A stretch of DNA of 48,727 nucleotides. It comes from Clostridiales bacterium (GTDB taxonomy: Bacteria; Bacillota; Clostridia; Christensenellales; Borkfalkiaceae). This document shows positions 6,994 through 41,698 of this stretch, piece after piece. The stretch is from contig SVHP01000004.1 in NCBI GenBank assembly GCA_015055735.1, positions 1-48,727 of the forward strand. Direction: 5' to 3'. Each line of letters begins with the position of its first letter. The stretch's first letter is position 1. Position numbers and translations under genes: made by a program. The notes under the pieces were generated by a model. The model made no database searches. It saw only the letters and a list, made by a program, of their open reading frames with translations, and was not told where the DNA came from.

Positions 6994-7827
6994 TTATTTT
7001 CTTGAAGAAAGTTGATTTTTCTTTCGCCATTCGCTAGGCGACATTTGATACATTTTAGTGAACTGGTTTATAAAGTTTTTAGGCGAACTATAACCGATTG
7101 TTGTAGCAATATCTAAAATTTTTAGGTTTGTATTCATCAGTAAAAAAGATGCGTAATTAATCTTTTGCACGTTAAAGAAATTTACGATTGTTTGTTTCAT
7201 ATATTTTTTAAATTCACGACAAATATATCCGTGGCTATATGGTATTTTTGACGAAAGTTCTTCTATTGAATATATAAAATTATCAGTTTTTTTAAGTTCT
7301 TTTACAAAAATAGTTAACCAATCTGGTAATAGATTTGTTTGCTGTTGAAATTTTTGATATTCAACTAAAAGGCTGATAGTAGCGGCAAAGTGCATATTTT
7401 TTAAAAGTGGCACTTGGTCGGTATTAGGAACGTTTTGAGAAGAAAAAAGTTCTTCAATATATTTTCTTATAGACGAAGTAGTTGTGAAAGACACCGGCTG
7501 TTTTGCTGAATATAATTTATCGTATAGTTCAGGGTCAATCATATTGCAATATAATCGCATATCGCTATCTAAAATATAAATATCTCTATGTCTATAAGTT
7601 TCATCTAGATTGGTCGTTTCAAAATAATGCACGTCCTTAATTGGACGCAAGAAGTAAACCGTTCCCGCAGAAATATCTTCGGTCTTTTTGTTTAGCGTTT
7701 GCTTGCAATGTCCGCTAAGAGAAATAAAAATTTCCCAATAGGTATGGTTGTGTTCCTGATTGTAAGGAATTTGAATATAATTTGTAAAAAGCGAATTTAA
7801 CAAAACTTCACTAGTAAAAGTAATCAT
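6994..7827 (-). CDS. AraC-family transcriptional regulator 1
   Basis: A 277-residue protein. The N-terminal part is a cupin-like sugar-sensing domain (HNHTYWEIFISLSGHC, then ISAGTVYFLRP near 52-62). The C-terminal 95 residues hold two helix-turn-helix units: one around IEELSSKIPYSHGYICREFK, the other around ILDIATTIGYSSPKNFINQF, with the family ending SPSEWRKK. ATG at 7827 is chosen because GGGAG lies 8 bases before it; a TTG immediately upstream (7830) is possible but less well placed. It is divergent from the first solute-binding gene, the classic position for an activator of that operon. Its likely binding sites are the repeats at 7969-8000 and the matching block at 3476-3505 (inference). 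Confidence 0.92.
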   Translation of the reverse strand: MITFTSEVLLNSLFTNYIQIPYNQEHNHTYWEIFISLSGHCKQTLNKKTEDISAGTVYFLRPIKDVHYFETTNLDETYRHRDIYILDSDMRLYCNMIDPELYDKLYSAKQPVSFTTTSSIRKYIEELFSSQNVPNTDQVPLLKNMHFAATISLLVEYQKFQQQTNLLPDWLTIFVKELKKTDNFIYSIEELSSKIPYSHGYICREFKKYMKQTIVNFFNVQKINYASFLLMNTNLKILDIATTIGYSSPKNFINQFTKMYQMSPSEWRKKNQLSSRK

Positions 7828-7968
7828 CAAAATTTCTCCCGTTTATAAATTAGATTAAAAATCGTAAAAATAAATCAAAAATAATTTCCAAAACACTTAA
7901 AGTGTTATTAAAAATAGATTAACACATGTGATAATGTCGTGTCAAGTAAAAATTATAAATAATAATCG

Positions 7969-8034: not shown

Positions 8035-8088
8035 TAAAGAAAAAATATGTAGGTAAATTTTAAAATTTGCCAAAATGGAGGTATGAAA

Positions 8089-9666
8089 ATGAAAAGACTT
8101 TTAGCTGTTTTATTAGGGCTTATCACTTTTGTTTCTTGCTTTGCTACAACTGGTTGTAACAATAGTGGTGTTTCTAATGAACAAAAACAAAACGCACTTA
8201 TAATTGAATATTATAAGGCAGGTTATGGTGAATTATGGATTCAAAAGCTTGCAGCCGCATACACTGAAAAGTATGGTCAAGAAGTTATTACTTTACCAAG
8301 ATCAGGTGACCAAGGCATTGAGAATATGTCTACAACTTTCCATTCAGGCGCTAGCGAAACAGATTTGTTCTTTACTAAGGGCGCAAACTTTGCAGAACTT
8401 TACAAAGGTGGTCAAGCCTCAAATAACTATTACACCGATATTACTGACGTGTACGAAGCGACGATCGATGGCGAAGGCGTTAAAGTAAAAGACAAGATGT
8501 ATGATGCATTTGAAGAATTCTACAAAATGCCAGCAGAAGGTAAATATTACGACGACAAGTACTATTTCTTCCCATGGGTAACGGGAATGATGGGTATAGT
8601 TGTTAATATGAACGTTTGGGAGCAAGTTGCACAAGGTAAGTCTTTCCCAAGAACAACTGATGAATTTTTAAAACTTTGTGGTGAAGTTAAGGGAGTTAAA
8701 GATGGTGTAGCACCTTTCATTTTCTCATTAAGTAACGAATATTTTACTTCGTACTATCAAGTATTTATGAACCAATACGAAGGTAATGAAAAAATGGATA
8801 AGTTCTATCAAGGCTATAACCCAGCTGGCGAACGTTATGAAGCAGGTATGGTTGACTATGATGGATTTAAGTATGCGTTAGAATTCTTTGAACAATTATT
8901 AGCAAAAGAAGGTTCTGACTACAAATATATGCACGCAGATAGTGCATCTGCAAACTTCCAAGGTATGCAAGGTGCTTTCTTAAATGGTGCTGCTTTATTC
9001 TCTGTTAACGGTGACTGGTTAGAAAACGAAATGATAACCAAATATCCAAACGTAAACCTTGCAATGCTTAAGACGCCTGTTTTAAGTGCAGTTGCTAACA
9101 AGTGTTCTTTCAAGGACGCTTCAAACAGAGATGAAATCTTATGTGCTGTAATCGATTACGTTGACGGCAAGACGACAACAAAACCTGATGGCTGTATTGA
9201 TGATGATATTGACTATATCCGTGAAGCAAGAGGTGTTGAATACGTGACGGGTAACGAACTTGTTTCTTACATTCCTACTTATTCTAACCAAATTCAAGCA
9301 GCTAAAAACTTCTTAAAGTTTATGGCGTCAGACGAAGGTATGAAGATTTTTAGAGATAACACTTATGGTTGCGAACTTCCACTTAATTATACGGAAAAAA
9401 GTACTGCAACTAAAGTTACAGGTTTCCGTCAATCTATCAACAGTATTTTAGACGTTTCAACAGCACGCTTCGTTAACAAAAAGGATAAGATTTATTCTGT
9501 AGGTGGTATTAACGTGCTTCTTTACAATAACAGTTTCGGTCGTTTTGCGGATGCCTTCTCAAGTTCTACGGCTAAAAAGACAGCCACTGAATATTATGAA
9601 GCAGAAGTTACCGCTGTAGATAAATTAATTCCTGGTGCATTAACACAAGCAGGTATTAGCAAATAG
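8089..9666 (+). CDS. ABC-importer solute-binding lipoprotein 1 (carbohydrate type)
   Basis: A 525-residue extracytoplasmic binding protein of the family-1 sugar-binding class. A lipobox with Cys23 (FATTGC) ends the signal. The fold is recognisable from an N-terminal beta-alpha opening (LIIEYYKAGYGELWIQKLAAAY), a hinge region with FFPWVTGMMGIVVNMNVW, and a helical C-terminal lobe. ATG 8089 is preferred: GGAGG (8077-8081) is 7 bases upstream of it but only 1 base from the alternative ATG at 8083. It is the first gene of the long operon and should pass its ligand to the permeases at 18886-20679, an unusual 9 kb away. Transcription is probably AraC-controlled. Confidence 0.92.
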   Translation: MKRLLAVLLGLITFVSCFATTGCNNSGVSNEQKQNALIIEYYKAGYGELWIQKLAAAYTEKYGQEVITLPRSGDQGIENMSTTFHSGASETDLFFTKGANFAELYKGGQASNNYYTDITDVYEATIDGEGVKVKDKMYDAFEEFYKMPAEGKYYDDKYYFFPWVTGMMGIVVNMNVWEQVAQGKSFPRTTDEFLKLCGEVKGVKDGVAPFIFSLSNEYFTSYYQVFMNQYEGNEKMDKFYQGYNPAGERYEAGMVDYDGFKYALEFFEQLLAKEGSDYKYMHADSASANFQGMQGAFLNGAALFSVNGDWLENEMITKYPNVNLAMLKTPVLSAVANKCSFKDASNRDEILCAVIDYVDGKTTTKPDGCIDDDIDYIREARGVEYVTGNELVSYIPTYSNQIQAAKNFLKFMASDEGMKIFRDNTYGCELPLNYTEKSTATKVTGFRQSINSILDVSTARFVNKKDKIYSVGGINVLLYNNSFGRFADAFSSSTAKKTATEYYEAEVTAVDKLIPGALTQAGISK

Positions 9667-9752: not shown

Positions 9753-9789
9753 TAAATCAACAGCAAAGGAAGTCTTTGCTGTTGATTTA
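9753..9789 (+). other. Perfect 16-bp intercistronic hairpin after the binding-protein gene
   Basis: TAAATCAACAGCAAAG and CTTTGCTGTTGATTTA pair perfectly around GAAGT. No T-tract follows directly (AAAAACAAAACG comes next), so it is not a standard terminator. In this place it could protect the binding-protein message from 3' exonucleases and so raise that product above the downstream genes (inference). Confidence 0.75.
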
Positions 9790-9827: not shown

Positions 9828-12371
9828 ATGTTTAAGAAAATAGCGAAAAGATGTGTAGCCTTATTAGGCGTTATCGTTTTATCGTTTGGTGTAGTTGCCT
9901 GTCAAGATACTCCAAAAACTACAGAAGTTGATTATGAAGTATGGACAACTTATAACACAATGAAAGTTGTAAGGGACGTTGAATTAAACGGGGTAAATCT
10001 TAACGACAACTACGTTAAAATGGAAAAAGCCATTAACGTAGCGATGGCTAAAGCGGAAAGTGAAATGGGTTCGCTTTACGTTACGACTGGTGAACAAGAG
10101 ATTGATAGTTTTAACCTTATAGCACAAGACCTTGAAAGTGATGCCGGTGATGTTTTTCCAGTTGAAAATATGACGGTTTATGCGCAAAGATATATTAAAG
10201 TTATTTGGCGTTCAAGAAACAATACTTATGAAGAATATCCACTTAACTGCTATTCGCCTGATGCTTTAGTAGAGATGGATTTATATCGTAAAGCCGGCGA
10301 AGATAAGATTGCATCAAATAACAACCAAGGCTTTACCGTTGACTTCAAAACTACGGCAAGCACTCCTGCTGGTGTGTATTCGGGTACTTTCTTATTAGAG
10401 TTAAATGGAGAGTATATTGATATTCCTGTTAGCGTAACCGTTTGGGATTATGCTATTCCAGCAAAATCAACTTCAGCATCTTGCGTGCTTATTTATGAAG
10501 ACTCTATTATGCAAGGCGAACAAACTAGTATTCAATCTGAAGTAGATGCTTGGTATAGAGTATATTATGAAACGGCATTAGAATATAGGATAAATCCTTA
10601 TATGGTTCCTGAATCAACCAAGAGTCCGGAAAAGTTCGTTGAAAACGTAGTTGCTTACTACGACCATCCAAACTTTACTTCTTTTGGTTTGCCACATCAA
10701 ACTTTCCTTCCAACTTATGATGCTTATTCTCATGATTATGCAGATAGTGCAGGTTACTTTGATGGTGCGGATGCTGCAAATAAGAAAGCTAGATACTACT
10801 GTGCTATGGACTACTGGTTTGATTGTTTATATTTATTAGGTAAACAAGCAAAAGAAAATAACGTAAATTATTTTGAAATTGCTTATTTGTATCCAATTGA
10901 TGAACCACACAGTGATGCAGAAATTGCAAATGCAATTACCTGGATGGAAGACCTTAATAAGCTTAAAAATGACGTTGCAGATAAACTTGTGGAAGACGGC
11001 GTTTTTGATGCTAATAACCCTATCCTTGATAGCATAAGAGACATTGATATTGTGTGTACTGCGCTTGGTGACGAACCAGCGTTAGCAGGATATGATATCG
11101 TTTACGTGCCAGAACCATATGAACTTGAAGATTATTCAATTCAAACGACGATAGAAAAACACGCACAAAATAACGATAACCCTATTTGGTACTATACTCA
11201 AATAGATAAAATCGGCGATGGTCCAAATCTATACATTGACGACTTTAACGTTGCTGGTAGAATTCAAGGCTGGTTAGAACAATATTACAATATTGACGGC
11301 TGGCTATATTGGGAGTTTAACCAATACTTAAAGAAGATAGCAAAAGTTTCTGGTTCAGGCGTTGTAAACCCTTATGAAGATATGAATAGAGATAACGGTA
11401 CGGCAACGGGTTGTGCTGGTGGTGGATATTTCGTGTATCCAGCAAGTAAGTACGGTGCATCAGAACCTATTAAGACTTTAAGATTGTTAACCTATCGTGA
11501 TGGACAAGAAGATAAAGAAGCATTAAGATATCTTGAAAGTCTATATGCTCAATTTGAAACTTATTACGGTGTACAAGCTGGCACGTTTGATATTAACAAC
11601 GTTTTCAAGGGTGTGTACGACAAATTATTCTGCCGTTCAGCAGTATATCGTGACGATGAAATGTTTGATGCATGTAAAGAAGTTCTTAAAGATGCAATAA
11701 TCAATGCTCAAACTGGACAAAGTAAGTTCGTTTACAATATGGAATATACTGGCAAAATGGCAACCTATACTTTCTATACAGCCCCAGGCTATTCAGTAAA
11801 AGTTAACGGTTCAGTATTAGCAAGTACTGTAAGTGGACAAGGTTTGAAACACACTTATACGATGGATGCGTCAGCACAAAACGCTTTAACTTCGGTTGAA
11901 TTAGTTAAAGATAGTCAAATAACAAAAGTTGACCTTTATGAAGTTGCAACTGAAAGGGCTGTTGATTTGACTGCAAGCACGTTCAACGTAACGGTTACTG
12001 AAGGTAGTTCTTTAGCCTATAATGAAACGGGTTACGATTTCACAATCGTAAGTAAAAATGAAAAATTCTTTACGCCAAAGATTACTTTCAATGGATTGCC
12101 TGATACTTTCAAAGTTATTGAAATTGATCTTGAAAACAATACTAACCAAACTACTGTAATGTCACTCAGATTTATTTATTCAGATGGAAGTTCTGAAACT
12201 AAAGATATAGGCTTAACTGCAAATACGGCAAGAATGGTTGAAGTTCTTTCTCGTAATGGCAAAGGCAAAAAGATAACGTCTGTTGAAATTAGGTTTGAGA
12301 ATAGGACAAGCGCAAACGGTCCGCTTGTTGGCGATAGAAACGTTTCTATAAAAGGAATGAGAGTTAGATAG
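9828..12371 (+). CDS. DUF4091-type secreted glycoside-hydrolase-like lipoprotein
   Basis: An 847-residue lipoprotein (lipobox VVAC, Cys25). Residues 40-215 form a beta-sandwich ending with AGVYSGTFLLELNGEYIDIPV...TVWDYAIP, the usual lead-in to a DUF4091 protein. The TIM-barrel-like body has YLYPIDEP (residues 353-360, Asp358-Glu359 as possible catalytic acids) and GWLYWEFNQY. The DUF4091 signature follows, with LRLLTYRDGQEDKEALRYLE. About 200 extra beta-rich residues at the C-terminus may bind carbohydrate. DUF4091 proteins are presumed glycosidases, with few activities known. It follows the binding protein and precedes three beta-rich surface proteins, so a role in trimming the captured glycan outside the cell is likely. 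Confidence 0.85.
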   Translation: MFKKIAKRCVALLGVIVLSFGVVACQDTPKTTEVDYEVWTTYNTMKVVRDVELNGVNLNDNYVKMEKAINVAMAKAESEMGSLYVTTGEQEIDSFNLIAQDLESDAGDVFPVENMTVYAQRYIKVIWRSRNNTYEEYPLNCYSPDALVEMDLYRKAGEDKIASNNNQGFTVDFKTTASTPAGVYSGTFLLELNGEYIDIPVSVTVWDYAIPAKSTSASCVLIYEDSIMQGEQTSIQSEVDAWYRVYYETALEYRINPYMVPESTKSPEKFVENVVAYYDHPNFTSFGLPHQTFLPTYDAYSHDYADSAGYFDGADAANKKARYYCAMDYWFDCLYLLGKQAKENNVNYFEIAYLYPIDEPHSDAEIANAITWMEDLNKLKNDVADKLVEDGVFDANNPILDSIRDIDIVCTALGDEPALAGYDIVYVPEPYELEDYSIQTTIEKHAQNNDNPIWYYTQIDKIGDGPNLYIDDFNVAGRIQGWLEQYYNIDGWLYWEFNQYLKKIAKVSGSGVVNPYEDMNRDNGTATGCAGGGYFVYPASKYGASEPIKTLRLLTYRDGQEDKEALRYLESLYAQFETYYGVQAGTFDINNVFKGVYDKLFCRSAVYRDDEMFDACKEVLKDAIINAQTGQSKFVYNMEYTGKMATYTFYTAPGYSVKVNGSVLASTVSGQGLKHTYTMDASAQNALTSVELVKDSQITKVDLYEVATERAVDLTASTFNVTVTEGSSLAYNETGYDFTIVSKNEKFFTPKITFNGLPDTFKVIEIDLENNTNQTTVMSLRFIYSDGSSETKDIGLTANTARMVEVLSRNGKGKKITSVEIRFENRTSANGPLVGDRNVSIKGMRVR

Positions 12372-12386
12372 GGGAGATATGAGATT

Positions 12387-14729
12387 ATGAAAAAACTTTT
12401 AATATTTCTTTTAAGCATAGTATGTATATTTTCATTCTTAATGGCAAGCGCATGTGACAATATTAACGAAGAAAAACAAGAAGAAAACGGAGTTTTAATT
12501 CTTGGCTTTAATACTTGGGATGACCTTGCTAGATTTGACTTAAATCCAACAACCTTTAGTGGTAATTGGAAATTAAACACAGACCCAGAGTACGTTTTTG
12601 AAGGCAGTGCTTCTTGGAAAATTTACGTTGACGCTGCACTTGTAAACGAGCCAAACTTCAAAATGAATGCAACTGGCGTAAAGACGGATATTACCGACGT
12701 AACTGAATTTAACCTTTGGGCGCATAGTGATTCAGAAACGCCTTTTGATATCATTATAACGGCTTATGCTGGTGATGAAGCAGTATGCTCACCTAAAGCA
12801 ACTGTAGAAAAAGGTGAAAATTACTTGTCATTCAAATTAAGAAGAGAAGCCTTAGTACAAAGAGGGCAAATGATAACTGAATATAGCATATCTTTCTCAG
12901 GCATCAAAGGTGGAACGACGCTTTACGTTGACGAGTTTAGTGCAAAAACTACTTTAGAAGCGGTTGTTTTACCACAAGCAGTTCAAGAAGTAATCAATGC
13001 TATTGCAAACTTAGGTAGCGACCCAACTAAAGAACAAGTTGAAAGCGCTATGGAAAAATATAGGGCGCTTCCTACCGAAGATAAGGTATGCGTAACTAAC
13101 TATACAACACTTAAAGCAAGCATACAATCTTTCCAATTAAGTGATTTGGCTGATGCTAAACTAGAAGAGCCAGCAAAATGGTTGTTCTTTGGAGATTCAT
13201 TTGGTGAAATTCAAGTTGAAGGCGCAAGCGCAGGTATTGCTTCTTACATGTATTCAACAGAACAAAAACACGGTGATGATAATGGTTCGTTAAAAGTTGA
13301 ATTTGAAGTTTCTTCAACCAAATGGTTAACCTTAAGCACGGTTGCAACGTCAAAGCCTGAAAGTGGATATCCTTACGTGGAATTCTACGTTTATAACGAT
13401 TCTGACCAATTAAAGGCACTATGTGTTGGCTGGAATGCGCCAGAAAACCCAATGCGTCCTGGTAAGTCATTATATTATATGATAGCACCAAGACATTGGA
13501 CAAAAATTTATTGCCCATCAAGTTGGTTATATGATGCTGGTGGCGCAAGTGGTGGTATCCAAATTTGCGGTTTAGGAGATTTGATGACAGGTGCATCTGA
13601 ACCACCAGAAGGTTCAATGTACTTCTCCTCATTCGTTACAAGAAACGATGAACAAATAATTGAACAATCGAGAGTAGGCGAAGATGCAAATACCTTGTAC
13701 TTCTTTGATAAGGAAGTTGGTACAGGTCAACTAATTCCTGCGGTAGATGTTTTCATTCCATATTCAAGTGCTATTGATATTGAATATTCTACAGACGTTA
13801 AGTTTGCTAATGAAGCAGGTTCACTTGCTATAACCAGTCACGAGGTAGAATACCCTGACGGTGAAAACGTTAAAAAAGGTGACCCACAAATCAAATGGAA
13901 TACTTTTGGTTATGAATTTAATGAAGGCGACTACGTTGCATTCTACGTTTATAACGATAGTGACTGTGACGTTGTAGATATTTCTTTAGGTACAGCGCAT
14001 AGACAAAGATGCTATAACGGAGAATGGACAATGGTGCTTTGGAGCGCTGCTGACGTTTTAGAGAATGGCTGGAGCTGGTTAATCGGTAGAAATTACGGCG
14101 AAAAAGATTATGCCCCTGATATCTATACTAGACTAACAGGTACTATATATCTTTCTAAAGCAAAAGTATATTCTAAAGACCAAATTAAAGACTTAACGAC
14201 TGTAGGAGCAACCGAAGAATATACTATTGGCCACGTTACTTCGATAGGCAGTCCTAACACAGTAAATAACGACTACGACCACGATAATATTTTTGCATTC
14301 AATGACCCAAGCTTCAAGAATCCTTTCTACGTAAACGGCATGTTGCGTTGGCACGCTCTTGGCTTGAAGTATCAAGATGAATACGCTCCACAAATAGCCT
14401 TTAAGTTTAAGCAATCTTACGAAATGGCATCAAATTGCTATATGTACGTGACTGTTAAAGGTGCTATTGAAGGCGAAATTTATTTCCAAGCATTTAACTC
14501 TCTTGTTTACACTGATGGTTATACAGGTGATGGGCACTTTGGTTCTCCATCAGGTCAATTAGTTGAAACTTTATCAGATGGCTTTGCAGTTTATAAATTC
14601 CACGTGGGCGAATTCATTACTCGTGCTAATGCAACAGACTTTAGCGCATTCCGTCTTACAGTAAGAAAAACTAAGAAACCAGTTACTGGACAAGTAATTG
14701 TAAGCGATATTGAAGTAAAATACGAATAA
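12387..14729 (+). CDS. Surface lipoprotein with CBM-like, helical and A/A/B modules
   Basis: A 780-residue lipoprotein (Cys23) of no recognised family. Residues 36-190 look like a galactose-binding-type beta-sandwich (FNTWDDLARF...GSASWKIYVD), and 194-250 like a short helical linker domain. Residues 255-425 and 432-600 are two copies of a module I call A: GSLKVEFEV...PYVEFYVYNDSD...MYFSSF versus GSLAITSHEV...DYVAFYVYNDSD...IYLSKAKVY. Residues 610-780 are module B (YVNGMLRWH...YMYVTVKGAI...GFAVYKFHVGEF...GQVIVSDIEV). A and B recur in the next two large genes. No catalytic motif is visible, so glycan binding is the best guess. ATG 12387 follows GGGGAG; the earlier ATG at 12379 hits a stop after three codons. 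Confidence 0.85.
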   Translation: MKKLLIFLLSIVCIFSFLMASACDNINEEKQEENGVLILGFNTWDDLARFDLNPTTFSGNWKLNTDPEYVFEGSASWKIYVDAALVNEPNFKMNATGVKTDITDVTEFNLWAHSDSETPFDIIITAYAGDEAVCSPKATVEKGENYLSFKLRREALVQRGQMITEYSISFSGIKGGTTLYVDEFSAKTTLEAVVLPQAVQEVINAIANLGSDPTKEQVESAMEKYRALPTEDKVCVTNYTTLKASIQSFQLSDLADAKLEEPAKWLFFGDSFGEIQVEGASAGIASYMYSTEQKHGDDNGSLKVEFEVSSTKWLTLSTVATSKPESGYPYVEFYVYNDSDQLKALCVGWNAPENPMRPGKSLYYMIAPRHWTKIYCPSSWLYDAGGASGGIQICGLGDLMTGASEPPEGSMYFSSFVTRNDEQIIEQSRVGEDANTLYFFDKEVGTGQLIPAVDVFIPYSSAIDIEYSTDVKFANEAGSLAITSHEVEYPDGENVKKGDPQIKWNTFGYEFNEGDYVAFYVYNDSDCDVVDISLGTAHRQRCYNGEWTMVLWSAADVLENGWSWLIGRNYGEKDYAPDIYTRLTGTIYLSKAKVYSKDQIKDLTTVGATEEYTIGHVTSIGSPNTVNNDYDHDNIFAFNDPSFKNPFYVNGMLRWHALGLKYQDEYAPQIAFKFKQSYEMASNCYMYVTVKGAIEGEIYFQAFNSLVYTDGYTGDGHFGSPSGQLVETLSDGFAVYKFHVGEFITRANATDFSAFRLTVRKTKKPVTGQVIVSDIEVKYE

Positions 14730-14749
14730 GATTTATAAAACCTAAAACG

Positions 14750-14789
14750 AGTGCCAAATTATCCGAAATTTTTTCGGGTAGTTTGCACT
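14750..14789 (+). other. Intercistronic hairpin, copy 1 of a conserved pair
   Basis: AGTGC...GCACT forms the outer stem and AAATTATCCGA pairs with TCGGGTAGTTT inside, with one bulged base between. No T-tract follows. The same structure occurs at 16401-16439 with a compensatory change in the outer stem. A second small hairpin (14814-14832) and an A/T-tract precede the next ribosome binding site. Confidence 0.7.
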
Positions 14790-14851
14790 TAAAATTAAAA
14801 AAATCAAAAAATATTACGATGAAAAATCGTAAAAATTTTGGGAGGAAAACT

Positions 14852-16384
14852 ATGAAAAAGACACTTTTAACAATTTTAACAGTAGTGCTTGCATTTTGTA
14901 GCGTAGGTTTAGTTGCTTGTGCTGATATTTTTCATACCTGTGTGTATGATCAAGAAGTTGCTAACGCAAGCACTTTAGCACAAGAAGCAACTTGCACGTC
15001 ACCAGCACTTTACTACTATTCTTGTGAATGTGGTGAAAACGGAACAGACATGTTTGAAGTTGGCGAAGCATTGGGACACAGCTATACAGCTGAAACAGTT
15101 AAAGCCGATGCTCTTATTACAGTAGCAAGTTGTCAAACTGCAGAAACGTATCACAAATCTTGTGTAAATTGTGGCGAAGTTTCTACTAGCGATGATGACG
15201 TGTTTACGGTAGGTGAAGTTCTTAAACATAACTATGACATTAACAACAATTGTTTGTGTACGTATGGTTGTGGAAAAAGTAACCAATTTGTTCCAAGACG
15301 TGTAGGTGAAGAAACAAACACATTATTCTTCTTTGACCAAGCAATTGGTGTAGACCAAATTTCTATTGTAAATAATGCGGCATATTGGTATAAATATACC
15401 CCTGAATTTTCTACTGAAAAGAAATTAGGAGAAGAAGCAGGTTCTCTTGCAATTAACATTGAAAAGAGAGAAACATATACAGAAGAAGCTCCAGAAAATG
15501 AACAAGAAGAAACGAAAGTTATTACATGGAATACAGCTGAGTATGAATTTAATGAAGGTGATTACGTTTCGTTCTACGTTTATAATGCTACTGCTTCTGA
15601 CGTTGTAGATATTTCTTTAGGAACGTCGCATAGACAAAGATGTTATAACGGACAATGGACATTAGTTCTTTGGAAAGCTTCTGACGTTGTTGCAAATGCT
15701 AATAGCTACTTATATCAATACAATTATGGTTCAGGCAATTTTGCAGGTATGTCTTCTGGTACTGACTTAAGCGGTGCTTTATACTTCTCTAAGGCTAAAG
15801 TATATTCTGCAGAACAAGTTAAGGATTTAAAAGAAGTTGAAGATACTTTCGAATACACTGTTGGTAGCGTAACCTTAATCGGTAAGGCTGGTACATCTTA
15901 TTTGGATGGTAATTACAATGGTGACCCAAGTGCATTCAACGATGCGTTCTACTTAAATCCACATTATGTAAACGGCGTATTAGCTTACCATATTCACGAT
16001 AAGAGAGAAACGTCTGGTTTACAAAAACCTTACGCTGAACCAAGGATTGAATTAACACTTAAGGACACATATGATCTTGCTAATTGTTATGTTTATATAA
16101 CTATTAAAGGTGCTGTTGAAGATGATATTTATATGCAAGCATTTAGTACTACAGGACACTTTGCTACATGTATGAAAGCATATAACAATCTTGAATTATT
16201 TGAAACTTTAGCAGATGGTTCTCAAGTTTACAAGTTCAATTTAGCACAATATGCTAACGCTGGTGGCAATGCAATTAACTTTAAGTCATTCCGTCTATGT
16301 GTAAGGCAAAATATAGCATACCCAGTTAACGCACAAATTGTTATTAGCAATATTAGCGTTGTTAACGAAATACCACAAGCGTAA
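14852..16384 (+). CDS. Surface lipoprotein with CxC/CxxC repeats and A/B modules
   Basis: A 510-residue lipoprotein (lipobox LVAC, Cys23). ATG 14852 follows GGGAGG; an in-frame ATG 69 bases upstream lacks a ribosome binding site and would bury the signal peptide. Residues 28-145 carry cysteine-pair repeats (YYSCECG, YHKSCVNCG, CLCTYGCG) separated by GHSY/KHNY-type spacers, similar in style to the phosphoesterase repeats at 3577-5229. Residues about 148-320 are module A (EEAGSLAINIEK...GDYVSFYVYN...DVVDISLGTSHRQRCYNG), nearly identical in its core to the second A copy of the upstream protein. Residues 325-510 are module B. It is probably a recent paralogue by duplication that included the flanking hairpin. 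Function unknown; surface binding is inferred. Confidence 0.85.
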   Translation: MKKTLLTILTVVLAFCSVGLVACADIFHTCVYDQEVANASTLAQEATCTSPALYYYSCECGENGTDMFEVGEALGHSYTAETVKADALITVASCQTAETYHKSCVNCGEVSTSDDDVFTVGEVLKHNYDINNNCLCTYGCGKSNQFVPRRVGEETNTLFFFDQAIGVDQISIVNNAAYWYKYTPEFSTEKKLGEEAGSLAINIEKRETYTEEAPENEQEETKVITWNTAEYEFNEGDYVSFYVYNATASDVVDISLGTSHRQRCYNGQWTLVLWKASDVVANANSYLYQYNYGSGNFAGMSSGTDLSGALYFSKAKVYSAEQVKDLKEVEDTFEYTVGSVTLIGKAGTSYLDGNYNGDPSAFNDAFYLNPHYVNGVLAYHIHDKRETSGLQKPYAEPRIELTLKDTYDLANCYVYITIKGAVEDDIYMQAFSTTGHFATCMKAYNNLELFETLADGSQVYKFNLAQYANAGGNAINFKSFRLCVRQNIAYPVNAQIVISNISVVNEIPQA

Positions 16385-16400
16385 TAAAAAAATAAAATAA

Positions 16401-16439
16401 GCGCTAAATTATCCGAAAAATCTTTCGGGTAATTTGCGC
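16401..16439 (+). other. Intercistronic hairpin, copy 2 of a conserved pair
   Basis: GCGC/GCGC is the outer stem, then a bulged T, then AAATTATCCGAAA pairing with TTTCGGGTAATTT around AATC. Compared with 14750-14789, the outer T-A pair has become C-G while the stem is kept, which is covariation in favour of a selected RNA structure. ATTAAAAAAC follows, not a T-tract. Confidence 0.7.
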
Positions 16440-16510
16440 ATTAAAAAACAAAACTTTTATAAAGGCTCTCACGGTGTAAAAACCGAAAAAAATTTTTTAG
16501 GAGGGGAACT

Positions 16511-16648
16511 ATGAAAATGGTTCAAGGTAAAAAGTCGGGCTACCAAAGTCCGCAAGTTCAATTTGTTTCCATTTGCGAAAACGTTTTAAAAACGTCTTTA
16601 GGCATGGAAGATTACGATTTTAACGTAGATACTGAGGATTGGGATTAA
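16511..16648 (+). CDS. 45-residue acidic-tailed micro-protein
   Basis: ATG 16511 follows a very strong AGGAGGGG, and the next gene's own GGGAGGAG begins right after the TAA, so this small frame is surely translated. The product has no signal peptide. Its basic N-terminus (MKMVQGKKSGY) leads to SPQVQFVSICENVLKTS and then to an acidic, aromatic C-terminus (MEDYDFNVDTEDWD). The Pro-x-Val...Glu-Asn-Val-Leu-x-Thr-Ser pattern recalls short uncharacterised proteins that I associate with gut Clostridia; this is memory, not a search result. It sits between two members of the A/B-module secreted family, and 16 bases separate it from the next gene. A role as a peptide signal, an assembly partner or a modified peptide is possible but unproven. 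Confidence 0.8.
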   Translation: MKMVQGKKSGYQSPQVQFVSICENVLKTSLGMEDYDFNVDTEDWD

Positions 16649-16664
16649 TAGGGAGGAGAATAAT

Positions 16665-18791
16665 ATGAAAACATTAAGAAGTAAAATTTTAGTTACACTT
16701 GTTTCAGCATTGTTTCTTTGCTTAAGTCTTGCCCTTGCCTTTTCTTTCAATATCGCAAAGGTACACGCAACGGTAGATAGCGATGCTTTCGTTATGGAAA
16801 AAGGCGCATCACTTGCGCTAACAAAAGACGGTCTTCGTTTCCGTGTTCAAATGGGTCAAAACGTTTACGACAGAATTTTTACTAATGACACTGATGATAG
16901 CGTTGACCTTTCAGTTCTTATTGCTCCAAAGTCTTTCTTTGAAGAATTAGATGCAACTGAAAACGCAGGCAAGTATCAAGAGCTTTCAAAGAAAATTGAA
17001 ATTCAAATTGACGACGTTAATAAGGTTTATGAAGAAGATGGCTACTACTATGCGAACGCAGTTTTAACAAATCTTGCAGTTGTAAATAGCAATGGCAAGA
17101 TTACTAAAGATCAATTTGATTTAGACTTTGTTGCTGTTGGTTGTATTGCAACTACTGCTGATTCTGAAACTACTTATGAATATGCATCTTTCTATGAAGA
17201 AGATATGGCTAACAATATTAGAAGTCAATATCAAGTAGCACACGCATCAGTTCTTCTTGAAAGTGATGAAGATGCATCTCTTGCTTCGGCAATTCTTGAT
17301 AGAGAAACTAGTCCGTACAAAACTTGGTTTGGTACTGAAGAGCACCCTATCAACGTTGATAGTGAAGAAGAATATAGTATTTTACAATCTAAAGTTTCAG
17401 CAGGCTTAACTACTGATGCACAATTTAACGTTTACAACAAGTTTGACCTTGGTGAAAGAGAAAACTTACCAGAAAACACTACTTTCTATCACTACGTAAG
17501 TTTTTATGATGAAGATAATACAACTTTAATAGATACAGTTGAGGTAAAAGAAGGCGAAGCTGCTGAACTAACAAAAACCCCTAGCCGTGAAGGTGAAGAG
17601 TTGCTTGACTATGCTAATGGTGTTATTTATAAATATTACTTAAGCTCATGGAAGAGTACTAACGCTCTTGGAGAAGAAGTTATTTCGACAGACCTAACTA
17701 ACGTTAGAGCGAACAAGAACGTTTATGCATACTATGGCAGAGATAGAATTGACGATGACTTACTCGCAGAAGCAAATGCTGCTAACACAGACGTTGCAGC
17801 ATTCTTTGGTGAAAGATTTGGTTTTACTCTACTTAATAAATATACTGGAACTGGTGCTTCCCACGCATATTATTCAGCAAATAAAGAATATCATCCTGAT
17901 ATGGAGTATGGTGGACTTAAAGGTATGACTTCATATACGGTTAACAACACTGCTGGTCAAGATTTAAGGATGAGATTTGATATCAAACTTAATGAAAATT
18001 TCACTTACAATACTGGTGATTACGTTAAGTTCTATGTTTATTCTGAGCATACAACAACTGCTTCACAAGCTCGTACTTTAGTAAGATGTAATGATGAAAA
18101 TGGTATTGCAGTAGTTTGTGATAATTACGATTGGTCTATGGTTGTTTTCCCAGCTGAAACTTTTGCAAATTCAACTTATTTATCTTTTGGTACATTTGGT
18201 ACTGCGGCTGCCGGAGATGTTTATAAATACTACATTTCAAATGCTGTACGCGTACCTGCAAGTGAAGTTTATAGAATGGATAATTGCGCAACTTCTGGCT
18301 GTACTCATACTGATGAAACTGTTGCTAGTGACTACACTTGGACCATTGGTGACGGGGACGTTGAATTTGTTGGCCCAGTATATAGATATGTATGGGGTTC
18401 TAATCATAGTTATATTGGTGAAGTTGATAAACACGTTTATTACGTTGAAAATAGTTTAGTATATGGCAATATGATATCTGCATCCGGAAGTTTTACAGCT
18501 AGAGCAATCGGTTTATCATTTGCTGAGAAAATGACTGGTAAGATTTACATTACAGCAAAAGGATTTGAAAGTGGCGCTGGTATAAGACTCTTTACTGATG
18601 GTATAGAAAGTGCTACTGGTTCTAACGTATGGAAAACGTTTACTAAGGTAAAAGACCTTAATAACGGCTTTGCTGTTTACGAATATGATTTTGGCGACTA
18701 TGAAGCTTCTTATGCTAGATTATGTGGTTATACTGAATATTTTGGTCAAGTTATCATTAGCAATATCAGCACAACTAATCCTGCAGCATAA
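16665..18791 (+). CDS. Secreted protein with N-terminal beta domain and divergent A/B modules
   Basis: A 708-residue protein with a type I signal peptide (hydrophobic to about residue 32, likely cut after KVHA at 35) and no lipobox, unlike its two relatives. Residues 40-225 begin FVMEKGASLALTKDGLRFRVQM, an opening I associate with large secreted Clostridia proteins but cannot name. Residues 270-355 resemble a beta-grasp repeat of the Listeria-Bacteroides type (SFYDEDNTTLIDTVEVKEGE...VYAYYGRD). Residues 375-560 are a divergent A module (GDYVKFYVYSEH), and 575-706 a B module (IYITAKGFESGAG...GFAVYEYDFGDY...GQVIISNIS). No anchor such as LPxTG is visible, so it may be released or held by partners. 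ATG 16665 follows GGGAGGAG. Function unknown. Confidence 0.83.
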   Translation: MKTLRSKILVTLVSALFLCLSLALAFSFNIAKVHATVDSDAFVMEKGASLALTKDGLRFRVQMGQNVYDRIFTNDTDDSVDLSVLIAPKSFFEELDATENAGKYQELSKKIEIQIDDVNKVYEEDGYYYANAVLTNLAVVNSNGKITKDQFDLDFVAVGCIATTADSETTYEYASFYEEDMANNIRSQYQVAHASVLLESDEDASLASAILDRETSPYKTWFGTEEHPINVDSEEEYSILQSKVSAGLTTDAQFNVYNKFDLGERENLPENTTFYHYVSFYDEDNTTLIDTVEVKEGEAAELTKTPSREGEELLDYANGVIYKYYLSSWKSTNALGEEVISTDLTNVRANKNVYAYYGRDRIDDDLLAEANAANTDVAAFFGERFGFTLLNKYTGTGASHAYYSANKEYHPDMEYGGLKGMTSYTVNNTAGQDLRMRFDIKLNENFTYNTGDYVKFYVYSEHTTTASQARTLVRCNDENGIAVVCDNYDWSMVVFPAETFANSTYLSFGTFGTAAAGDVYKYYISNAVRVPASEVYRMDNCATSGCTHTDETVASDYTWTIGDGDVEFVGPVYRYVWGSNHSYIGEVDKHVYYVENSLVYGNMISASGSFTARAIGLSFAEKMTGKIYITAKGFESGAGIRLFTDGIESATGSNVWKTFTKVKDLNNGFAVYEYDFGDYEASYARLCGYTEYFGQVIISNISTTNPAA

Positions 18792-18832: not shown

Positions 18833-18859
18833 CCACCACCGATTTAATATCGGTGGTGG
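18833..18859 (+). other. Intercistronic hairpin before the permease genes
   Basis: CCACCACCGAT and ATCGGTGGTGG pair perfectly around TTAAT. GAAAAAATCG follows, not a T-tract. A TTTTTT run and AGGAG then lead to the permease start. Confidence 0.75.
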
Positions 18860-18885
18860 GAAAAAATCGTTTTTTAGGAGAAAAG

Positions 18886-19797
18886 ATGGAAAATACGAAG
18901 ATTGTTAAAAAGGAAAAGAACGTAAGTAATAATATTTTTATAATAGTCATGCTTATCGTTCCTATAATTTCCTTTTTATTCTTTTACGTTTATATAAATT
19001 TCAATTCTATTTTATTGGCTTTCCAAGTGCCTCTTTACGATGGATTGGGTGGATTTGAAATTGGACTACAAAATTTTGAAACCGTAATTAAACAATTTAC
19101 TAATACGGACGATAAGTTTTTTTCTTATTTGCGTAATACGTTAATTTATTTCAGTCAAGATACGTTTATCAATATGCCTTTATCTCTTATCATTTGTTAT
19201 TTTATTTATAAAAAAATAGCATTGAGTAAGGTTTTAAGGGTTATCATTTATTTACCTATTATTATGACGCCGACAATCGTTTCAGTATTGTTTAAGTTTA
19301 TGATAGAAGCAGGTGGGCCTTTACAAGCCATTTGTGGTACTAATATTGCTTTACCTAATACCTTTATTCAAGATGAACAATATGCATTAAAAACAATATT
19401 GACCTATTCTATTTATTCAGGACTTGGCGCTCGTTTCGTTCTATTTGGCGGTGCAATGAATTCTATTGATATAAGCGTAATTGAAGCAGGTAAGTTAGAT
19501 GGCGTTGGTCCATTTAGAGAACTTGTTTCTATAATCGTGCCTTGTATTTGGCCTACGTTTGGAACTATGCTTTTAATTAGTTTTACGGGTGTATTTACTG
19601 CAAGTGGTCCATCGCTTTTATTTGACCCTGACGGTAGATTTGGTACTATGTCAATTAGCTATTGGATTTATACTAAAACTACGGGTACTGGTTCACAACC
19701 TGAACTTGCGTCAGCTACTGGTTTGGTATTTACTTTACTTGGCTTACCGATAGTGTTTATCGTTAAAAAGTTGACAAAAATAACGGAGGGAAACTAA
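18886..19797 (+). CDS. ABC sugar importer permease 1 (UgpA/LplB type)
   Basis: A 303-residue membrane protein with six predicted transmembrane segments. The cytoplasmic coupling loop motif is EAGKLDGVGPFRELVSIIVPCIWP, written here as EAGKLDGVGPF followed by RELVSIIVPCIWP. ATG 18886 follows AGGAG, whereas a GTG-led extension upstream overlaps the hairpin and is rejected. The next permease begins at the base after its stop. The pair should serve the binding lipoprotein at 8089-9666. No ATP-binding subunit is encoded anywhere in the window, so an MsmX/UgpC-like ATPase encoded elsewhere must energise it (inference from family habit). Confidence 0.92.
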   Translation: MENTKIVKKEKNVSNNIFIIVMLIVPIISFLFFYVYINFNSILLAFQVPLYDGLGGFEIGLQNFETVIKQFTNTDDKFFSYLRNTLIYFSQDTFINMPLSLIICYFIYKKIALSKVLRVIIYLPIIMTPTIVSVLFKFMIEAGGPLQAICGTNIALPNTFIQDEQYALKTILTYSIYSGLGARFVLFGGAMNSIDISVIEAGKLDGVGPFRELVSIIVPCIWPTFGTMLLISFTGVFTASGPSLLFDPDGRFGTMSISYWIYTKTTGTGSQPELASATGLVFTLLGLPIVFIVKKLTKITEGN

Positions 19798-20679
19798 ATG
19801 AGGACGAAAATTAAAAGAACTGTAGGCGAGCGAATAATATTTTCTATAGTATTTGTTTTGCTTGCAATTTACGCATTATTTATTCTATATCACTTTTATT
19901 TCCTTCTTCAACTTGCAACGAAAACTGACGTAGAATTTGACCAAGCTCTAGTAATTGACGCTTACGGTACGTGGAGTAAGAATATACAATTTTCTAACTT
20001 ATTTAAGGCCTTTACGCTCTTTAAGGACGAGTATGGCAATACTTTCTTAAGTATGACTTTCAACTCGCTTTGGTTTGCTATTGGTAGTGAAGTTATCGTT
20101 TTATTCTTCCAAAGTGCCGCCGCTTACGTTATTTGTAAGTATAATTTTAAGGGGAAATCTTTCCTTTATAACCTAGTTATCGTTCGTATGATGATTCCTA
20201 TCGTCGGTACTTTACCATCTGCTTATAAGGCTTATAAACTGATAGGTTTAATCGACTCGCCATTAATTTTATTAACGGCTACTGACGTTTTAGGTGGGGC
20301 AAACTTCCTTATAGTTTACGCTTTTTATAAAGGCATTTCTTGGGACTATGCCGAAGCTGCGTTTATTGACGGTGCAAACAATTTCCAAGTATATTTTAAG
20401 ATTATGTTTAGAATGGCGTTGCCAGCAATAAGCGTATTATTTATTACAGGTTTTATTGGGCGTTGGAATGAATACTTAAATATAAGTATATTTATGCCTA
20501 ACTTACCAACTTTATCGTATGGATTATATAAGTTCCAAGCAGATATGTTGCACGATGGCGCAAGAATGCCGATTTATTTCTCAGGTGTTTTCCTTGCTGC
20601 TATTCCGTGTATTACCTTGTTTATCATATTCCAAAATTCAATTATGCAAACGGTACATTTTGGTGGACTTAAAGGATAA
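19798..20679 (+). CDS. ABC sugar importer permease 2 (UgpE type)
   Basis: A 293-residue membrane protein with about six transmembrane segments. It has the conserved coupling motif AEAAFIDGANNFQVYFKI and the family C-terminal ending with MQTVHFGGLKG. It starts directly after the first permease's stop, with GGAGGG in that gene's last codons as ribosome binding site, so the two are translationally coupled as a heterodimer. Two hairpins separate it from the GH106-like gene. Confidence 0.93.
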   Translation: MRTKIKRTVGERIIFSIVFVLLAIYALFILYHFYFLLQLATKTDVEFDQALVIDAYGTWSKNIQFSNLFKAFTLFKDEYGNTFLSMTFNSLWFAIGSEVIVLFFQSAAAYVICKYNFKGKSFLYNLVIVRMMIPIVGTLPSAYKAYKLIGLIDSPLILLTATDVLGGANFLIVYAFYKGISWDYAEAAFIDGANNFQVYFKIMFRMALPAISVLFITGFIGRWNEYLNISIFMPNLPTLSYGLYKFQADMLHDGARMPIYFSGVFLAAIPCITLFIIFQNSIMQTVHFGGLKG

Positions 20680-39034: not shown

Positions 39035-40750
39035 ATGAAAAAAGTTTTATCACTCACTATGGCGATTCTTATTTCGGTAACGGTCGCATTTACCAGCACG
39101 GCTTGTCAAAACAGAACCGGCGAAACAGTTAAAGAAGGTTATACGCCATTATACGTAAACGTATTATCTTGTGGTGTAGGTACGGCTTTTGCTGAAAGCT
39201 TGGAAGATAAATTTGAAGCTATGTGCGAAGCTGAAGGAAAGAAGGTTGACGTTATTATCACTACTAACGACGTTAACGGCAACGAAGGTATTACTGCAGT
39301 TAGAAGCGGGGCTTCTGATATCTTCTATTTCAACGGTTTTGACATAAGCTATTATACTAACCTTGCTGAAAAAACAAGTAACGCAGTTCTTGATATAACT
39401 GACATCGTTACTGAAGGTGGAGAAGACTCTATTTACAACAGATTACAAGAAGTTTCTAGAAATTATTTTAACGTTGGCACTGATAACGACCCTAAATTCT
39501 TCGCTCTTCCTTGGTTCTCATCTTACTATGGTACGGTATATGACGTAGAACTCTTTAGAGAAAATCATTACTATAGAAACGATCCAAACATTCCTGCTGA
39601 TTCTTCAATTCTTGAATATACAGGTCTTGACGGAATAACAGGTAATGAAGACGATGCTTTCGGACCTGACGGTGTTGAAAATACCGTTGACGACGGATTA
39701 CCAGCAACTTGGAACGATTTTAGACTATTACTTGAACAAATGCAAAATACCCAAGTTAAGCCTTTTGCATTTACCATGCAAGGCAACTATACCGAAGCTT
39801 GGCTTTATAGTTTATGGGCTTCTTATGAAGGCGCATCAAACATTTACACTATGACAAACTTTAGTGGCGATTATAAGAGTAGAAATGCTCAAGGTGGAGT
39901 AGATACTTTAGAAGTTACCCCTGAAAACGCTTACATGATGTCAGAACAAACTGGTAAATTGGCAGCGCTTGAAATTGCAAAATACTTAGTTGAAAGTAAT
40001 AGTATTTGTCTAAACTCTTACGATTCTGCTTCAGAAAACAACTTAGAAGCACAAAAGACTTATTTACGTAGTTTCCTTGGTAAAAATGCAAATAAAGACG
40101 GACAACGTATAGCATTCTTAATGGAAGGTACGTGGTGGGAAAACGAAGCAAAAGATTATTTTGGTACTTTAGTAGGCGAAACCAAAGATGATTCTCTTGC
40201 TTATGGCACTCGTGAATTCGGATTTATGCCATTCCCTAAATTTATCAACGACGCAAGTGGTATTCCTGATCAAGTACATAATAAAACCGTTATGAGATCT
40301 TCTTGGGTATCTAACATGGCTGCTGCAGTTATGATTAGTAAAAACAGTGCTCAACCTGAACTTGCAAAAAAATTCCTTAAACTTGCATATTCAGAAGAAA
40401 TGAACGGTGACTTTACTCTAAATTCAGGTGTTACAGTACCTATGGAATATACCATGACTAAAGAACAGTTGTCAAAAATTACTCCTTTCCAAAAGAATAT
40501 TTTTGAACTTGTTCAAAGCCCATACGTAGAAGTTGTAGAGGCTGTTACTCGTTCTGAATATATGTTGTCAGAACCAGACGTAGTAAAAACGATTTCTACC
40601 TTTGCAATGGCTACAAGTGAAACTACAAGCACCTATATCAATGCGCCAATCGAAAAGTTTAAAGAAAACATGAGTGTTGAAACTTATTGGCAAGGAATTC
40701 AATGGGCAAACCCTGCTAAAAACTGGGCAAATATGCCTTGGATGAAATAG
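39035..40750 (+). CDS. ABC-importer solute-binding lipoprotein 2 with acidic loop insert
   Basis: A 571-residue lipoprotein (lipobox STAC, Cys24) of the family-1 sugar-binding class. Typical blocks are LEDKFEAMCEAEGKKVDVI in lobe one, FALPWFSSYYGTVYDVELF at the hinge and LMEGTWWENEAKDYF in lobe two. Residues 198-222 form an Asp/Gly-rich insert (GLDGITGNEDDAFGPDG, then VENTVDDGLP) that looks like a calcium-binding loop of the EF-hand or thrombospondin-3 kind. The insert sits just before the conserved PATWNDF segment. AGGAGG precedes ATG 39035. Permeases follow directly, in the usual order, unlike the first system. Confidence 0.93.
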   Translation: MKKVLSLTMAILISVTVAFTSTACQNRTGETVKEGYTPLYVNVLSCGVGTAFAESLEDKFEAMCEAEGKKVDVIITTNDVNGNEGITAVRSGASDIFYFNGFDISYYTNLAEKTSNAVLDITDIVTEGGEDSIYNRLQEVSRNYFNVGTDNDPKFFALPWFSSYYGTVYDVELFRENHYYRNDPNIPADSSILEYTGLDGITGNEDDAFGPDGVENTVDDGLPATWNDFRLLLEQMQNTQVKPFAFTMQGNYTEAWLYSLWASYEGASNIYTMTNFSGDYKSRNAQGGVDTLEVTPENAYMMSEQTGKLAALEIAKYLVESNSICLNSYDSASENNLEAQKTYLRSFLGKNANKDGQRIAFLMEGTWWENEAKDYFGTLVGETKDDSLAYGTREFGFMPFPKFINDASGIPDQVHNKTVMRSSWVSNMAAAVMISKNSAQPELAKKFLKLAYSEEMNGDFTLNSGVTVPMEYTMTKEQLSKITPFQKNIFELVQSPYVEVVEAVTRSEYMLSEPDVVKTISTFAMATSETTSTYINAPIEKFKENMSVETYWQGIQWANPAKNWANMPWMK

Positions 40751-40790
40751 TAGAAATTTTTAATATGCTACAGGAGCGAACATCAAGCAA

Positions 40791-41687
40791 ATGAAAAAGA
40801 TAAATTCAAATAAAAGCAAATGGATTAGAGAAACGATCTTTGCAGCGGCAATAGTGATATTGCCGCTTGCTTGGTGGGCGTTCTCTTTCTTTTATACGAC
40901 CTTTGATACCATTCTTTTGGGGTTCAAGGGTTATAATCGTATAAATCAGCAGACCACTTGGGTAGGCTTTGAAAACTTTGTAACGGTTATTGAAGAGTTA
41001 ACGACACCTGGAGAACTTTTGAATACTTCGCTCACAAATTCATTGTTGTTGTGGGTGATTAACGTATTCATAGCAATCCCTATTGCTCTTTTAGTTTCTT
41101 TTGCGTTATACAAAAAGGCTATCGGCTCTGGTATTTACAAAGTTATTTTGTTCTTACCAAGTATTGTGTCGGGTATGGTTTGGGTTTTAATTTATTCATT
41201 CCTTCTCGATAAGGGATTTCAAGTGGACTGGCTTTCTAATAACGATAAAAACCTTTATGCCTTGCTATTCTATAACTTGTGGTTAGGTTTTGCAGGTAAT
41301 ATGGTTTTATATACTGGGGCAATGAGTAGAGTTCCACCGTCATTAGTTGAAGCGGGACATCTTGACGGTATGAACGACTTTCAAGAATTTATCTACATAG
41401 TTTTACCACTTATATTCCCAACCTTGTCGGTTATACTTACTACTTGCATAATGACCATATTCACTATTCAATTGCCTGCGTTTGCTTTTTATGGTAACGG
41501 TGGTACTCAAAGTAAACCACATTTGTATAGCTTTGGCTTGTATACCTTTATGAAGGGTTATGCGCAAGATCCTGGCGAAACACCACTAGTTTCAGCAATA
41601 TCAATGCTAGTTTGCGCAGTTGCTGCGCCTGCATCGGTGTTGTTCCGTAAGTTATTGGAGAAGATTTCTCCAACGGTTGAATATTAA
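40791..41687 (+). CDS. ABC sugar importer permease 1 of the second system
   Basis: A 298-residue membrane protein with six predicted transmembrane segments and the coupling motif EAGHLDGMNDFQEFIYIVLP. The ribosome binding site AGGAG (40772-40776) is 14 bases from ATG 40791, longer than usual, so translation may be weaker or partly coupled. The gene follows the binding protein after 40 bases. No ATPase gene is nearby. Confidence 0.92.
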   Translation: MKKINSNKSKWIRETIFAAAIVILPLAWWAFSFFYTTFDTILLGFKGYNRINQQTTWVGFENFVTVIEELTTPGELLNTSLTNSLLLWVINVFIAIPIALLVSFALYKKAIGSGIYKVILFLPSIVSGMVWVLIYSFLLDKGFQVDWLSNNDKNLYALLFYNLWLGFAGNMVLYTGAMSRVPPSLVEAGHLDGMNDFQEFIYIVLPLIFPTLSVILTTCIMTIFTIQLPAFAFYGNGGTQSKPHLYSFGLYTFMKGYAQDPGETPLVSAISMLVCAVAAPASVLFRKLLEKISPTVEY

Positions 41688-41698
41688 GGAGGTGTATT

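Follow-up and report, generated by a model that had tools for sequence, protein, structure and literature searches.

What is the role of 3 adjacent secreted proteins that are encoded between a DUF4091 enzyme and 2 sugar permeases in an uncultured gut Clostridia bacterium? The proteins, which we refer to as P1 (12387..14729, 780 amino acids), P2 (14852..16384, 510 amino acids) and P3 (16665..18791, 708 amino acids), are encoded on the plus strand of contig SVHP01000004.1, the whole 48,727-nucleotide stretch of which is here called the window. A preliminary description of the sequence had suggested that they may represent a Gram-positive glycan-capture set. Our analyses lead us to assign a probability of about 0.65 to the explanation that P1 to P3 capture glycans at the cell surface without catalysis, as part of a Gram-positive locus for glycan utilisation and in the manner of SGBP-B, a surface glycan-binding protein (SGBP) of Bacteroidota.

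The P1 protein consists of the N module (12492..12956, residues 36-190), a connector named H (12969..13142, residues 195-252) that is helical in the predicted model and recurs in relatives, and the modules A0 (13170..13646, residues 262-420), A (13674..14186, residues 430-600) and B (14199..14720, residues 605-778), all on the plus strand, as are the features of P2 and P3. In P2, for which the mechanical open reading frame (ORF) begins at a TTG codon at position 14783, ahead of the ATG codon at 14852 used here, a Cys-rich repeat region (14930..15289, residues 27-146) is followed by an A module (15302..15820) and a B module (15833..16360). These were identified with hidden Markov models (HMMs) at E values of 5e-64 and 3e-63, respectively, from seeds that included P2 itself. 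The P3 protein contains a domain called P3N (16773..17384, residues 37-240, alignment A7 with 18 members), a further stretch, and the modules A (17781..18254) and B (18321..18776). The N module and the helical connector of P1, the Cys-rich repeats of P2 and the N-terminal domain of P3 had not been mentioned previously.

The A and B modules were homologous in all 3 proteins, as had been claimed. The A+B region of P1 (residues 429-777) was 45% identical in sequence to that of P2 (residues 150-503, E about 1e-87), and the similarity of P1 to P3 was weak by BLAST (23% identity, E 2e-5). In profile comparisons, however, the A profile matched the A module of P3 with a probability of 99.3% (E 1.8e-20) and the B profile matched its B module with 99.5% (hhalign, E 1e-22), whereas unlike pairs reached at most 1%. 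The claim that P1 contains 2 copies of A was borne out by the comparison of A0 with A, which are paralogues (98.6% probability, E 5.5e-16); no sequence link of N or B to A0 and A was obtained with small profiles. The proposed core motif GDYVxFYVYN was recovered in the A modules of P1 (GDYVAFYVYN), P2 (GDYVSFYVYN) and P3 (GDYVKFYVYS, thus ending in YS), but not in A0, which reads YPYVEFYVYND and lacks GDYV. The B modules end with GQVIVSDI, AQIVISNI and GQVIISNI, in line with the terminal motif proposed. Also the signals for secretion were as described: by eye, lipobox-like sequences were seen in P1 (ASAC) and P2 (LVAC), and a signal peptide without a lipobox in P3.

Searches with P1, P2 and P3 against Pfam, NCBIfam and PDB sequences gave nothing significant and the best family rows were all below threshold (for example, DUF4969 with E 0.26 and YscJ_FliF with E 0.14), in agreement with the earlier statement that they belong to no recognised family. 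No relative was obtained from a single-protein scan of the genome_contigs set with a window protein. In the predicted structures, by contrast, the N, A0 and B modules of P1 (AF2 model, pLDDT 74) and the A and B modules of P3 adopted beta-sandwich folds resembling carbohydrate-binding modules (CBMs), and the models thus contained tandem beta-sandwich domains, including a CBM-like binding domain. Among the matches listed, the folds of the P1 modules were mainly similar to binding modules. Toxin, reelin and meprin rows in the fold comparisons indicate that the beta-sandwich fold is widespread, and the Cry-type toxins that were the top Foldseek rows of P1 were rejected as sharing a common fold with poor superposition (TM-score 0.11-0.12 on target).

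The gene for P1 starts 15 nt after the end of the gene for a lipoprotein classified as a DUF4091/GH123-type beta-N-acetylgalactosaminidase (9828..12371, plus strand), which matched the Pfam family GH123_cat with E 3.4e-14 (53.4 bits as compared to a cut-off of 23.1). The protein contains a DE motif at residues 358-359, and DE was aligned in 54 of 62 relatives. Its nearest solved relative in the PDB is 8k2f (E 1.5e-15), an oligosaccharide-releasing beta-N-acetylgalactosaminidase that, judging from the molecule name, is presumably NgaCa. According to a paper on these enzymes, Gal-beta1,3-GalNAc-beta-pNP is the sole compound on which the group 1 enzyme NgaCa is active, and the DE motif has a catalytic function (PMC11087588); the DUF4091 region and the DE motif are features shared with the enzyme in the window.

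To avoid selecting loci by P1, a census of the genes downstream was seeded from DUF4091 genes, which were collected with PF13320 from 12 of 44 genomes of the genus and with a five-sequence DUF4091 alignment from 28 of 121 genomes of the family. The family list comprised 68 distinct DUF4091 genes, 50 from a first fetch and 18 from a second, and a minimum ORF length of 500 amino acids was applied. Of the 62 distinct ORFs in the first batch, 58 had a readable next gene, which coded for N- or A-type modules in 29 cases with un-iterated seed profiles and in 51 cases with iterated profiles, as compared to 12 and 32, respectively, of 387 other ORFs (Fisher test, 4e-20 and 4e-37, P values that are optimistic since the genomes are related). 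The next genes, whose products are here called companions if they contain such modules, followed closely, with 30 nt or less between the end of the DUF4091 gene and the next start in 57 of 58 cases, and a lipobox pattern fitted 49 of the 58 products. On the upstream side, the adjacent gene coded for the extracellular solute-binding protein (SBP) of a sugar importer in 50 of the 59 cases with room for it. In the 7 of 58 cases without a companion, the next gene coded for a permease (2 cases), an SBP, another DUF4091 protein or other proteins (3 cases).

The second batch, examined with unchanged profiles, contained 15 ORFs of at least 500 amino acids, of which 11 had a next gene. Companions were identified in 4 of the 11 (2 by seed profile) and in 1 (0) of 76 other ORFs, after omission of a fifth iterated-profile match that was itself a DUF4091 protein. 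Inclusion of the second batch thereby lowered the share of companions in the family, which had been 51 of 58, to 55 of 69 (31 with seed profiles), against 33 (12) of 463 other ORFs for both batches together. The probabilities assigned here were not altered by this, since the additional misses concern other forms of the enzyme. Because the iterated profiles for N, A and A0 had merged after 5 rounds, they were rejected as sole evidence, and seed profiles, other families and a PF18329 search were added. We excluded duplicates (L088, L089) and regions identified only by P1 (L056-L060, L062-L072, L074, L075, L024, L025), while the window and 4 loci first met via P1 (L022, L023, L061, L073) were also present in the DUF4091 lists and were counted.

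The cases without a companion in the second batch were 5 shorter enzymes (544-665 amino acids) and 2 genes for which the next gene was again of the DUF4091 type; 2 shorter DUF4091 fragments also had companions. Furthermore, 3 strong matches to the classical GH123 profile (L076, L077, L093) did not match the DUF4091 profile and were not counted; the next gene was not a companion in L076 and L093, and L077 ends at the gene itself. These patterns indicate that the companion tracks the long secreted form of DUF4091 rather than every DUF4091 gene. In 2 loci (L160, 3590-8329, and L161, 4262-8909), secreted DUF4091 genes formed tandem pairs with the companion located after the second gene.

The association extended to other families of the order, where DUF4091 matches were found in 8 genomes (9 of 248 including that of the window). 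Here, using seed and iterated versions together as the N and A HMMs, the next gene belonged to the companion family in 8 of 10 regions, 2 of which (L142, L143) are close relatives, and with a stricter choice of genes in 7 of 9, as compared to 6 of 60 others. Many loci contained a second gene, often for Ig-like or A-type modules, and then a third gene with P3N; in 16 of 58 cases, P3N was assigned to one of the closest ORFs downstream. The general unit is a secreted DUF4091 enzyme plus a companion lipoprotein, of which P1 is the local form.

A remote link to known glycan-binding proteins came from PF18329, the binding domain of SGBP-B, which matched 15 of 37 short companions at E<=1 (best 4.3e-7, above the cut-off). 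The cut-off was exceeded by 1 of 6 companions scanned singly and in 2 of 122 genomes, and in the latter set 11 of 14 PF18329 matches had a DUF4091 match no more than 1.7 kb upstream. No PF18329 match was found in the genome of the window at E<=10, for P1 to P3 at E<=1 or for 3 single A-type modules. Against NCBIfam, the 37 companions gave scattered rows only, the best of which (E 0.0007) concerned a single member.

The resemblance to SGBP-B (PDB 7kwb, 7kwc, 7k44, 5e7g, 5e7h) concerns several features: it is also a surface lipoprotein with tandem beta-sandwich domains, its gene is likewise located beside those for a surface glycosidase and an importer, and it is linked to the proteins studied here by the remote sequence match of the companions and a fold match of the A module in P3. 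Here, in contrast, the host is Gram-positive, the importer is of the ATP-binding cassette (ABC) type rather than SusC/SusD, and binding is a property that we infer. The Pfam rows for those window genes that were scanned contained neither SusC nor SusD, the importer consisting of an SBP and 2 ABC permeases, and since the window proteins also did not match PF18329 we have not classed them as members of SGBP-B. The folds are also similar to those of beta-sandwich CBMs (CBM4, 16, 22, 27, 29 and 61), with sequence identities of 6% to 13% in the fold-match rows. However, the modules in P1 to P3 differ from CAZy-type CBMs in that they are not joined to a catalytic domain, and no Pfam CBM model was matched at E<=1.

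The SBP, the extracellular sugar-binding lipoprotein of the importer, is encoded at 8083..9666 on the plus strand (SBP_bac_1, E 2e-17). The permease genes are located on the same strand at 18853-19797 (BPD_transp_1, E 5.8e-10) and 19798-20679, the second being assigned from profile homology to orthologues and reading. With the Pfam matches, the gene order confirms that P1 to P3 are encoded between the DUF4091 enzyme and the permeases. The complete order is a GH20-type gene (5286, upstream), an AraC regulator (6994-7830, minus strand), the SBP, the DUF4091 enzyme, P1, P2, P3, the 2 permeases and, further downstream, GH106-like (20827), GH94-like (23677) and metallo-beta-lactamase-fold (26157) genes. 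No signal peptide was seen by eye in the GH20, GH106-like and GH94-like proteins, for which reason the extracellular set is taken to consist of the SBP, the DUF4091 enzyme and P1 to P3.

These data are consistent with a model in which P1 and P2 would be lipid-anchored and P3 secreted or otherwise held, with tandem beta-sandwich modules that may retain a glycan at the membrane. It is the neighbouring genes alone that suggest the substrate, a glycan that probably contains beta-linked N-acetylgalactosamine (GalNAc) or hexosamine. The DUF4091 enzyme, itself lipid-anchored and the product of the gene preceding P1, would cut the held glycan, the SBP would hand the released oligosaccharides to the permeases, and the putatively cytoplasmic GH20, GH94-like and GH106-like enzymes would complete the breakdown. 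A surface enzyme that releases oligosaccharides, if encoded beside an oligosaccharide importer as predicted here, fits with such a capture pathway.

An alternative, which we regard as rather unlikely, is that the modules serve as spacers or as scaffolds for assembly, keeping the DUF4091 enzyme and the SBP off the membrane and binding little sugar. The gene directly adjoins that of a lipid-anchored enzyme and the product is built from multiple modules with a helical connector, which would suit such a role. For another domain of polysaccharide utilization loci (PULs), DUF1735, a function as spacer has also been put forward (PMC11216935), and the presence of CHU_1279 was reported to be more critical than its binding capability (PMC12016534). 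But the folds and the PF18329 matches favour sugar-binding domains over Ig spacers, and the number of modules differs widely among loci.

The proteins could also be general adhesins or cell-envelope proteins that attach to mucin of the host or to adjacent cells and have only a loose connection with the transporter. A P3-type relative (P3N+A+B) is encoded alone beside unrelated genes in the same genome (L021), and the companions are often followed by multi-domain proteins of Ig-like type (by eye, with weak Pfam Ig/PKD rows), yet the conserved location next to genes for DUF4091, SBP and permeases makes this improbable. Less probable still, and hardly to be expected, is that one or more modules are undescribed enzymes, such as jelly-roll hydrolases or lyases. 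The jelly-roll fold can house lyases, and a 1,195-amino-acid companion (L059, 80-3667) contains, in the same chain, fn3 and a domain similar to tyrosine phosphatases (PF13350, E 1.5e-28). The modules are, however, merely about 150-170 amino acids each, their fold matches are to binding modules in the main, and no catalytic motif was noticed in the alignments, in which no dedicated test for one was run.

The closest relatives were also examined. When 398 genomes of the family were searched with a three-sequence P1 alignment, 34 of them, including that of the window, gave matches that were either complete or partial, and a contig search identified 4 loci from Clostridia metagenome-assembled genomes, 2 of which are titled sheep colon and goat cecum. 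The gene for P1 was located directly after the DUF4091 gene, with permeases after the set, in 5 of 5 loci (the window and L022-L025). Among further relatives, P1 is interrupted by a stop in L071, and L073 is cut before any permease. Of these 7 loci, P3 was present in the window, L022, L025, L071 and L073, but not in L023 and L024, and a separate P2 gene was found in the window only. The folds, the remote PF18329 link of the relatives, the conserved place and the lipoprotein signals partly support the glycan-capture role proposed in the preliminary description, whereas the trio as such is specific to this locus. Neither of the 2 outcomes that the description had named as refuting it was obtained, as no named family was matched by the modules of the window and A and B proved to be related among the 3 proteins. 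Since L073 contains A-B-A-B within one chain, P2 may have originated by duplication of an A+B unit.

Other changes in module content were noted. An additional H+A0 unit is inserted in the P1 relative of L024 (10001-13003), indicating that module number changes by tandem duplication. In the P3 relative of L025 (12509-14671), the B profile matched with E 3e-60, as compared to 1e-12 in L022, and the A+B region was far nearer the P1 type, as if swapped between neighbours.

As in a Gram-positive PUL (gpPUL), genes for a regulator (AraC), degrading enzymes (GH20, DUF4091) and transport (SBP, permeases) occur together in the locus, and in PMC10318527 a gpPUL is likewise described as glycoside hydrolase genes, an ABC transporter and a regulator in one locus. 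The same paper states that its gpPUL lacks an SGBP, a role often taken by a CBM on endo-acting enzymes, whereas the locus studied here encodes separate, apparently binding lipoproteins. Sas20 of Ruminococcus bromii also binds glycans at a Gram-positive surface, but is a starch-binding amylosome component (PMC9112005), and the likeness is one of description only. In PMC12016534, a protein was termed SGBP-B-like on the basis of its predicted fold, its location and binding measurements.

In the literature searched, with most subscription papers outside its scope, no companion lipoprotein beside DUF4091 was found described, and none is described in the passages of PMC11087588 consulted; the words transporter and gene cluster never occur in the main text of that paper. 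The chances appear about even that the companions represent a class of surface glycan-binding proteins not described before from Gram-positive bacteria. These would be built from one CBM-like module superfamily (N, A0 and A together with the modules of the companions) that is distantly related to SGBP-B domains. Across an order of gut Clostridia, their genes would directly follow those for secreted DUF4091 glycosidases, and with the enzyme and the SBP they would be functionally equivalent to the Sus surface machinery. If true, the conserved cassette would supply the SGBP that the gpPUL reportedly lacks (PMC10318527), many uncharacterised lipoproteins of gut Clostridia would gain a testable role, and new candidate sugar-binding modules, perhaps for GalNAc-containing glycans, would be at hand.

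Several observations concern individual parts of the window. The Cys-rich repeats of P2 resemble (38-51% identity) protein stretches on 5 other contigs of the same genome. P3N is a widespread domain located directly after the signal peptide, with the consensus EGA..R..GIRF, that could be placed in no known family and is also present in the solitary P3-like protein of L021. Its 18 members had no Pfam match in common, the best single row being SPOCS_spoVID-N (E 2.7e-4, one member), and PDB rows to antibody chains (E 0.004 or worse) were taken as chance.

Promoter-like sites in the window, 59 as compared to 49.7 (sd 7.7) in shuffled sequences, showed no clear excess and were therefore disregarded. 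For terminator-like sites the numbers were 11 and 7.4 (sd 2.9). An inverted repeat of 16 pairs is located between the SBP and DUF4091 genes (9753-9789), which could perhaps limit read-through and give an excess of SBP. A second SBP-permease-permease set, followed by the gene for a 1,415-amino-acid secreted protein without a Pfam match, is located at 39035-46842, and the window contains 3 GH94-like genes in total, at 23677, 31863 and 34643.
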